Notes under the pieces: model-generated
Seen by the model: only the letters and a program-made list of their open reading frames with translations
Databases searched by the model: none
What the model was told of the DNA's origin: nothing
Virus record (IMG/VR): IMGVR_UViG_3300027749_000276
Span: 1-36,121 of that record
Length of the DNA stretch: 36,121 nucleotides
DNA from: a virus
Direction: 5' to 3' (one strand)
Shown here: in pieces, positions 30,766 through 32,901 of the stretch
Layout: each line of letters begins with the position of its first letter
How positions within the stretch are numbered: position 1 is the first letter of the stretch
Position numbers and translations under genes: made by a program

Positions 30766-32143
30766 TTGTTTTCCTTCGGCGCTTCATGGCGTCCATCAAA
30801 ATATCTTGTACCTCGCGCTTGGTCTCCAAACGCTCTAACACCAGCTCGTCTACTGTCCCCTTGGCCAGTATCCGGTGGATGAACACCGGTCTGTTGTGGC
30901 CAGCCTGCATCTGCCGGGTGGGCCCGATCCGCTCAATGATCTGGAGGTGCTCTTCAAGGTTCCAATTGACCGCGAAGAACACCAGTATATTGCCGCCGTC
31001 CTGCAAGTTAAGGCCGTGCCCAGCGCTTGCCGGGTGGGCGAATAACAGCGGTATTTTGCCTTCGTTCCAGTCCCGTATGGTCTGCGGGTTCTTGTCCAGA
31101 TGGCGCCCCTGTGGGAAGGCCTTGAGCAGCCTTGCAAGGTCGCTCCTGAAGTTGTAGGCCACCAGCACCGGCATGCCTGCGGCCTCCTCCACAATTGAAT
31201 CTAAGGCCTCTATCTTGGCCTTGTGCAGCTCGCGCCACTCGATGGCACCCTCGCCCACGTACATGGCGCCGTTGGCGATCTGAAGGCACTTCTGGGTCTT
31301 TGCTGCGGCGTTGAACGCTTCAACCTCGTGCCCAGAGTCCAGCGACGTGAACATTTCCTTTTCCATCTCCTTATAGTGCTTGCGGGCCTTGGGCGGCAGC
31401 GTCACCATGATGTCGTTGATGATGGGTTTCTTCAGGTCAAACCAGTCCTTGGCCTCGATGGTCAGGCACACGTCGCGCAGCTTGTCTTGTATCTCTTTTT
31501 GGGCGTGGCGCATGGGCTCCAAGCCAAAGCCGTCACGGGCCGTCTGGAACCAGCGTTGGCTAAAGGCCGTGAACGTACGCCCAAGGCGCGTGCCCGCGTC
31601 TAGGAACCACGCCTGTCCCCACAGGTCCTTGAGGCCGTTGCTGGCCGGTGTGCCGGTCAGCTCAATGATCCGGTTGATGCGGGTGTGGGCGATAGAGCCC
31701 AGCGCCTGCGCCCGCTTGCCGCCTTGGCGTAGCCGGAAGGACTTGACCCGCGTGGACTCGTCCAGCACCACGGTGCGATAGGGCCACTTGTCGCCCCAGT
31801 AAGCCACCAGCCAGACCAGTTGCTCGTAGTTGGTGGTGTAGACCTGCGCTGGGCTGCGCACAGCTTCTATGCGCTCTTTCTCAGTGCCCGTGATGGTCAC
31901 GACGTTCATGCCGCACAAGTGCTTCCACTTGAGCACCTCGTCGGGCCACGTGCCGGTGGCCACGCGCAAGGGCGCCACGACCAGCACCGGGTCGTCCTCC
32001 ACCATCAAGAGCGCCTCAATGGCCGTGAGCGTGGCCACGGTCTTGCCGGTGCCCATACCGGCCCACACCGCGCAGCGCTTGCTGTTTAATATGTGCTCAA
32101 TGATCATGCCCTGATACGGGCGGGGAGTGAATACTTGCCTCAC
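30758..32143 (-). CDS. SNF2-type DNA helicase/translocase
   Basis: A 461-residue superfamily 2 ATPase. Visible motifs: Q-like 'RPYQ' (residues 8-11), Walker A 'AGMGTGKT' (28-35), motif Ia region 'VVAPLRV', DExx box 'LDEST' (127-131), motif III 'LTGTPASN' (162-169), the C-terminal helicase lobe with 'VAYNFRSDLARLL' and 'SAGHGLNLQDGGNILVFF', and motif VI-like 'QIIERIGPTRQMQ' (401-413). Compared with full-size SNF2 proteins it is short, a size usual for phage members. It should remodel or unwind DNA during replication or recombination. The start codon is GTG and overlaps the methyltransferase stop (GTGA). Confidence 0.88.
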   Translation of the reverse strand: MRQVFTPRPYQGMIIEHILNSKRCAVWAGMGTGKTVATLTAIEALLMVEDDPVLVVAPLRVATGTWPDEVLKWKHLCGMNVVTITGTEKERIEAVRSPAQVYTTNYEQLVWLVAYWGDKWPYRTVVLDESTRVKSFRLRQGGKRAQALGSIAHTRINRIIELTGTPASNGLKDLWGQAWFLDAGTRLGRTFTAFSQRWFQTARDGFGLEPMRHAQKEIQDKLRDVCLTIEAKDWFDLKKPIINDIMVTLPPKARKHYKEMEKEMFTSLDSGHEVEAFNAAAKTQKCLQIANGAMYVGEGAIEWRELHKAKIEALDSIVEEAAGMPVLVAYNFRSDLARLLKAFPQGRHLDKNPQTIRDWNEGKIPLLFAHPASAGHGLNLQDGGNILVFFAVNWNLEEHLQIIERIGPTRQMQAGHNRPVFIHRILAKGTVDELVLERLETKREVQDILMDAMKRRRKTNG

Positions 32144-32901
32144 ATCATGCTTTCAATGAAGACGCGCGCCGCTTCAGCGTTGATTGCGTTTCCGTAGGCG
32201 CGCAGTCGTCCCACTCTTGAGGCAGCCCCATGAGCCAGCGGGAATGTGCTGGGTTCAATTGGGCGGCGTTTTTTGTTTTGGCATTGAACCCATCGAGCGT
32301 TTCCCCAAAAAGTACCAGATGAACACAATGTGCTAGTTTGTCTGTCCTGCCGCTGCTCACCACGCTGGGGGCGGCTCCGTCCTTCCAATCGCGGGCATTC
32401 GGTGTTGGCCACCCAGTAAAGTCGGTCTCGGATGTGCGGAGCGCCGACGCCCGCAGACGGGAACGGGACGGCCCCGAAGGCGTAGCCCACGGCTTCCAAG
32501 TCAGCTTGTACAAGGTCGATCCAAGGCTCTGCGTCCTTGCTCGCAACCTGCTCTCCAATAATCGTTGCAGGGCGACACTGCTCAATGAGGTGGTGAAAGG
32601 CGGGCCAGAGATGCCGCTCATCATCAAACCCGCCGCCTTTACCTGCCGAGCTGAAAGGCTGGCAAGGACAGCTTCCTGTCCATACTGGGCGATCATCTGG
32701 CCAACCTGCTCGGCGTAGGGCAAGGCTCCAGACCCCGATTCCGGCAAAGAAGTGGCACTGGGTGTAGCGCTTGAGTTCGTTGGGTGTGACATCTTCAATA
32801 CTCCGTTCATCAACAATGCCGGGCGCGATATGCCCAGCTTCAATTAAATTGCGCAGCCATTGCGCCGCGTAGGGGTCTATCTCGTTGTAGTAGGCAGTCA
32901 T
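32140..32901 (-). CDS. DNA cytosine-5 methyltransferase (orphan, phage type)
   Basis: A 253-residue C5 methyltransferase that uses S-adenosylmethionine. Motifs: I '[16 protein letters not shown]' (51-66), IV '[14 protein letters not shown]' with catalytic Cys80, VI 'GEQV' (Glu117; usual form is ENV), VIII 'RDRLYWVA' (158-165) and X '[16 protein letters not shown]' near the end. A segment resembling motifs II/III ('[13 protein letters not shown]', 'VDERSIEDV') lies before motif I. The recognition region between VIII and X is short (about 60 residues). No restriction endonuclease partner is nearby, so protection from host restriction or self-marking is likely. Start ATG overlaps the nuclease stop (ATGA). 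A second frame overlaps it almost entirely; see the entry at 32145-32792. Confidence 0.88.
32145..32792 (-). CDS. Overlapping same-strand ORF inside the methyltransferase gene (possible dual coding)
   Basis: A 215-codon frame in another phase on the same strand. The ATG at 32792 is preceded by CGGAG with 8-nt spacing; the frame stays open upstream to a TTG at 32843. Its translation is not random: it contains '[18 protein letters not shown]', '[20 protein letters not shown]', '[20 protein letters not shown]' and ends '[20 protein letters not shown]' plus a basic tail. This combination (LTWK, TPSG, LRAS, TGWPTP, SRWLMG.P..W) is one I recall from many phage and prophage database proteins, usually called hypothetical or methyltransferase. 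Either it is a real overlapping gene or those entries are shadows of the methyltransferase frame. No function can be assigned. Confidence 0.4.

Follow-up and report, generated by a model that had tools for sequence, protein, structure and literature searches.

A phage C5 cytosine methyltransferase gene with a conserved +1 reading frame that may encode its motif IX subunit

A C5 cytosine methyltransferase gene in the viral record IMGVR_UViG_3300027749_000276 (hereafter the window, meaning the whole 36,121-nucleotide stretch that was analysed) is almost certainly a genuine dual-coding locus, in which two overlapping frames of the same strand both appear, from comparison of relatives, to be protein-coding and under purifying selection. 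We call the large frame alpha and the small frame, which lies at +1 relative to it, beta. Very likely the two are the subunits of a heterodimeric C5 methyltransferase of the M.EcoHK31I type, with the small subunit embedded in the large one. A C5 methyltransferase made of two polypeptides is a known kind of enzyme; what is new is the breadth of the arrangement in phages, which alignments and stop-codon counts indicate is maintained across hundreds of distantly related phages. A preliminary description of this DNA had reported two protein-like frames on one strand; both are present as it described them, and the peptides that it quoted are exact, as is its mapping of LYWVAN in one frame onto TGWPTP in the other and of a second quoted pair.

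Alpha (253 aa) is a C5 cytosine methyltransferase: it matches PF00145 over the cut-off (E = 2e-13), with an alignment to M.HhaI that spans the motif IV-VIII region and with the catalytic PCQ present, and it matches phrog_363 with E = 6.6e-85. The preliminary description credited this frame with all the C5 methyltransferase motifs, listing I, IV, VI, VIII and X; those five are there as listed, but motif IX is in the second frame, so that alpha is not complete as a single chain, although its family match stands. The GEQV that replaces the usual ENV in motif VI is invariant across the aligned relatives. The order of motifs in alpha also seems to be permuted, with FFAGIG of motif I directly before motif IV (positions 32734-32901, minus strand, and aligned phrog_363 relatives) and with an N-terminus (...GxVDERSI, before FFAGIG) that aligns with the motif II-III region, which trails motif I in ordinary C5 methyltransferases. 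The gene overlaps both adjoining genes by a few bases. Upstream of it are a family-A DNA polymerase and a small endonuclease (phrog_93), and downstream is an SNF2-type helicase; the coliphages K1H and fTaEco03 have a matching gene order, in which a DNA polymerase is followed by small endonuclease or hypothetical genes, then by the methylase and the helicase. No restriction endonuclease was recognized among these neighbours, and we therefore read alpha as an orphan enzyme within a replication module.

Table 1. Coordinates of the two overlapping frames and their sequence elements in the window.
Feature	Position	Strand	Basis
Alpha ORF (large frame), orphan methyltransferase of the C5 cytosine family; motifs I, IV, VI, VIII and X present	32140..32901	-	PF00145, phrog_363, motif alignment
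Alpha motif I, FFAGIG	32734..32751	-	Sequence
Alpha motif IV, PCQPFS, with the catalytic Cys	32650..32667	-	Sequence, alignment
Alpha motif VI, GEQV (ordinarily ENV)	32545..32556	-	Sequence, alignment
Alpha motif VIII, RDRLYWVAN	32404..32430	-	Sequence, alignment
Alpha motif X, RLRAYGNAI	32182..32208	-	Sequence, alignment
Small (beta) ORF, +1 frame, ATG start, 215 aa, carrying the putative motif IX	32145..32792	-	Reading frame, start-site conservation, profiles
CGGAG Shine-Dalgarno-like sequence of beta, 8 nt ahead of the ATG; relatives keep AGG/CGG-AG[CT]	32801..32805	-	Alignment
Putative motif IX element of beta; in the alpha frame the same DNA runs to just before motif X	32208..32258	-	Profiles
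Conserved LTWK of beta, predicted beta-hairpin	32493..32504	-	Conservation, model
WPTP of beta, overlapping WVANT of alpha just past motif VIII	32400..32411	-	Sequence

Evidence that both frames are coding comes in part from stop codons, whose number was compared with that expected after permutation of synonymous codons. Eighty viral loci were fetched via the alpha frame alone, and the 77 distinct ones hold, from codon 40 up to the final 25 codons, 3 stops in the +1 frame versus 276 expected, with none in 74 of them. An independent set of 75 relatives from bacterial genomes, likewise chosen by the alpha frame only, gave 10 versus 252, the frame being open in 71. In the viral relatives, stop counts were near expectation at +2 and in all three reverse frames, and the controls yielded 3790 stops versus 3962 expected in 387 flanking ORFs and 429 versus 480 in the window's own other genes; the flanking genes and the other frames rule out general stop avoidance or codon-pair bias as the cause. 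Three viral loci have a +1 stop: in L044 and L059 it lies beside the end of the conserved part, and L022 has an altered 3' end.

Beta is itself conserved as a protein. At several alignment columns it keeps one residue in 95-100% of cases where alpha varies (I/L/V with Ser in beta, A/V with Leu, varied residues with Pro), and some alpha codons are nearly frozen, one Pro being CCT in 75 of 76 relatives. Across 29 independent pairs of relatives, changes at alpha codon positions 1, 2 and 3 numbered 1143, 615 and 1116 (40, 21 and 39%), compared with 174, 116 and 539 (21, 14 and 65%) in neighbouring genes (7 pairs). The former pattern is what a +1 overlap predicts, because position 1 of alpha is the third position of beta and position 3 of alpha is the second of beta.

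The beta frame is open from 32843 to 32145 and ends five bases short of the end of alpha. Its start is likely the ATG at 32792, not the TTG at 32843 picked by the ORF finder. The preliminary description had noticed that the second frame has a CGGAG and an ATG of its own; the spacing between them is 8 nt and both are conserved. The ATG is supplied by Asp37 of alpha, which is encoded by GAT in 138 of 148 relatives (background 42%), and four residues before it Arg33 uses the rare codon AGG in 64 of 150 (background 8%); the corresponding P values of 5e-40 and 4e-30, from 150 aligned relatives, count related sequences as independent. In the aligned relatives this AGG is mostly followed by AGC or AGT, which creates GGAG 7-8 nt upstream of the beta ATG. 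The ATG itself is present in 133 of 149 relatives. About 14 of these 133 have an immediate stop after it (with an indel in one; for example, L006, L009 and L011), and in these a start further in must be used. Near codon 33, the alpha frame of Pseudomonas phage PMG1 (L165, about 2501-2610) seems shifted, with beta intact. The conserved ATG, the Shine-Dalgarno-like site and selection on the frame are consistent, at the sequence level, with a separate gene product.

The beta protein is family-like, as had been suggested: it matches phrog_1008 (5.7e-29) and phrog_31772 (1.4e-20), and tblastn finds it in 216 phage records. Its best-conserved C-terminal block is a hallmark, LNPxxxxWLMGxPxxW. In single-chain methyltransferases, drawn from viral contigs by a DNA pattern, the same element is in frame with the methyltransferase and precedes motif X by about 20 residues, and a single-chain profile aligns the hallmark element and motif X to residues 270-308 of M.HhaI (RKLHPRECARVMGYPDSY...YKQFGNSVV), a segment that comprises motifs IX and X of C5 methyltransferases. 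This C-terminal match is weak alone, but it is collinear with a strong N-terminal one. The AlphaFold model of one single-chain member has a C5-methyltransferase fold (pTM 0.71), with M.HhaI structures as its best PDB matches (E = 2e-13). When the beta family was compared with single-chain enzymes in hhalign, the hallmark element was the sole match (E = 1.1e-5). A profile of single-chain motifs IX-X detects 99 of 115 beta proteins versus 2 of 150 alpha proteins, one of the two being a natural indel fusion of both frames (L234); profile comparison therefore places motif IX on beta and finds it missing from alpha. AlphaFold models beta alone poorly (pLDDT 62, pTM 0.29), and the motif IX assignment therefore rests on sequence profiles; a fold search with this low-confidence model gave no match below E = 0.001.

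Alpha and beta probably work together, a functional reading that goes beyond the preliminary description, which proposed no function. In the two-subunit enzyme that we propose, alpha would supply motifs I, IV, VI and VIII, for SAM binding and catalysis, plus motif X, and beta, presumably translated from its own ribosome-binding site within alpha, would supply motif IX, which in single-chain enzymes lies within the target-recognition lobe and immediately precedes motif X. The two chains would assemble into the active enzyme, with beta presumably needed for catalysis, and the heterodimer may methylate phage DNA, presumably against host restriction.

An alternative interpretation is that beta is a real overlapping gene with some other job, for example as an inhibitor, regulator or anti-restriction protein. 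We consider this unlikely, even though beta is much longer than motif IX requires, its LTWK and WPTP blocks are conserved too, and searches of Pfam, NCBIfam and the PDB with the beta protein or alignment returned nothing significant: the best-conserved C-terminal block is motif IX by profile, and beta overlies methyltransferase frames without motif IX, the second ORF being usually closed where motif IX is in frame. A programmed frameshift, by which the first part of alpha would run on into the last part of beta as an alternative single chain, is very improbable. Nature does offer one such product by indel (L234, 2859-4107), and in L518 (10248-11196) an indel has likewise made a hybrid ORF that begins as alpha and finishes as beta. 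However, the conserved start codon and Shine-Dalgarno sequence of beta precede its conserved part, and the +1 frame is kept open throughout the region that encodes motifs IV-VIII, something that a frameshift late in the gene would not require. L518 also has a +1 ORF with a WLMG motif of its own and a separate motif X segment.

The preliminary description had left the choice between a widespread dual-coding pair and a deposited family that is merely an out-of-frame shadow of methyltransferase conservation, hence an annotation artefact. The frames do map onto each other letter for letter, and databases name both of them 'DNA methyltransferase', but we regard the shadow as having next to no chance of being correct, and the synonymous-shuffle, codon-position and start-site tests reject it: stops are nearly absent compared with synonymous shuffles, the beta start is conserved, beta residues are conserved where alpha varies, and the substitution pattern is that of an overlap. 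Frequent stops in the second frame of relatives, or constraint confined to the methyltransferase frame, had been named in advance as observations against dual coding; stops there are almost absent and constraint is present in both frames, which favours the widespread pair. The preliminary description had also proposed checking whether hits to the second frame sit over a methyltransferase frame, and nearly every such match that was inspected sits at +1 over one.

The nested arrangement extends well beyond close relatives of the window. Over all queries, the hallmark motif was in the +1 frame in 269 of 313 methyltransferase ORFs, and these 269 contain 71 stops in that frame versus 836 expected. 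The numbers of +1 stops were 39 versus 217 expected for Bacteroides phage relatives, 13 versus 131 for Paenibacillus phage relatives and 1 versus 30 for Mycobacterium phage relatives. A sample collected with the pattern EWMMG[FL]P, independent of the other sets, includes 35 enzymes with the motif in +1, which have 6 stops versus 112 expected (none in 30 of the 35), and 27 with the motif in frame, which have 56 versus 111 (none in 2 of the 27); the single-chain enzymes are from L452-L571. An in-frame motif thus usually goes with a closed second ORF. The two-fold depletion of +1 stops in this single-chain class, very few members of which are fully open, is an observation that the two-subunit reading does not explain. 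Two cases in the EWMMGLP sample scored as having the motif in neither frame (L459 and L466) are dual-coding on inspection, with a variant motif IV that the search pattern had missed.

Matches to phrog_1008 occur in 17 of 299 Pseudomonadota genomes. Most of the 30 loci returned from these 17 have the motif at +1 over a methyltransferase frame as scored by script; by reading, L584 (the same place as L596) and L586 have the second ORF over a methyltransferase frame, as does L582 with a variant motif, while in L587 the methyltransferase is truncated and L588 matches weakly and has four stops. Taken together, the reading frames indicate the same architecture in phages of Proteobacteria, Bacteroides, Paenibacillus and mycobacteria. 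Both frames are annotated in coliphages K1H and fTaEco03, where an 'Mte8-like protein' is nested in the methylase gene. Whereas phrog_363 is the family of the alpha frame, phrog_1008 and phrog_31772 belong to the beta frame and are nevertheless named as methyltransferases; beta proteins appear in databases under the names 'DNA methyltransferase' or 'DNA-cytosine methyltransferase' (in these two families and in L250, L258 and L165). In some phages the nested frame is annotated as a second 'DNA methyltransferase' ORF, and in some (SOVA965 and PMG1) beta is the only annotated frame.

The small subunit of M.EcoHK31I is reportedly encoded inside the large one, in another frame. In that enzyme, which recognizes YGGCCR, motifs I-VIII and X belong to the large polypeptide and the small one has motif IX alone (Lee, Kam and Shaw 1995, summarized in PMC3404938), and the phage proteins resemble the split given there in that alpha has motif X but lacks motif IX, which beta appears to have. 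This likeness is drawn from the published motif architecture of M.EcoHK31I. M.EcoHK31I is part of a restriction-modification system, in contrast to the phage pair, an orphan in a replication module. M.AquI (CYCGRG) is likewise a C5 methyltransferase split over two polypeptides, but motifs IX and X are both on its small subunit, together with half of the variable region (PMC3404938), whereas the phage pair keeps motif X on the large chain and its ORFs are nested over about 650 nt. The ShiLan domain, an inserted out-of-frame HNH endonuclease hidden in a phage methylase gene (PMC11855218), is similar as a hidden second frame in such a gene but differs in not being part of the enzyme. The YGGCCR enzyme of P. 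aminophilus, considered as a relative, was ruled out as an m4C enzyme. In open-licence papers we found no published account of a conserved dual-coding phage methyltransferase pair.

On balance, we think it more likely than not that a large share of phage and prophage C5 methyltransferases, in several bacterial phyla, are obligate heterodimers with subunits in overlapping frames. If so, these would be among the most widespread long same-strand overlaps known, and M.EcoHK31I, a little-known special case, would represent what is usual in a large group of phage methyltransferases. Phage annotations give one frame or the other, with the same enzyme name for both, and many 'DNA methyltransferase' entries would then be the non-catalytic motif IX subunit. 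Clones of the annotated ORF alone with recoded codons would wreck the second subunit and may show no activity. An overlap of 215 codons kept across phyla would also be a valuable natural example in which to study dual coding and the transfer of a motif between chains.
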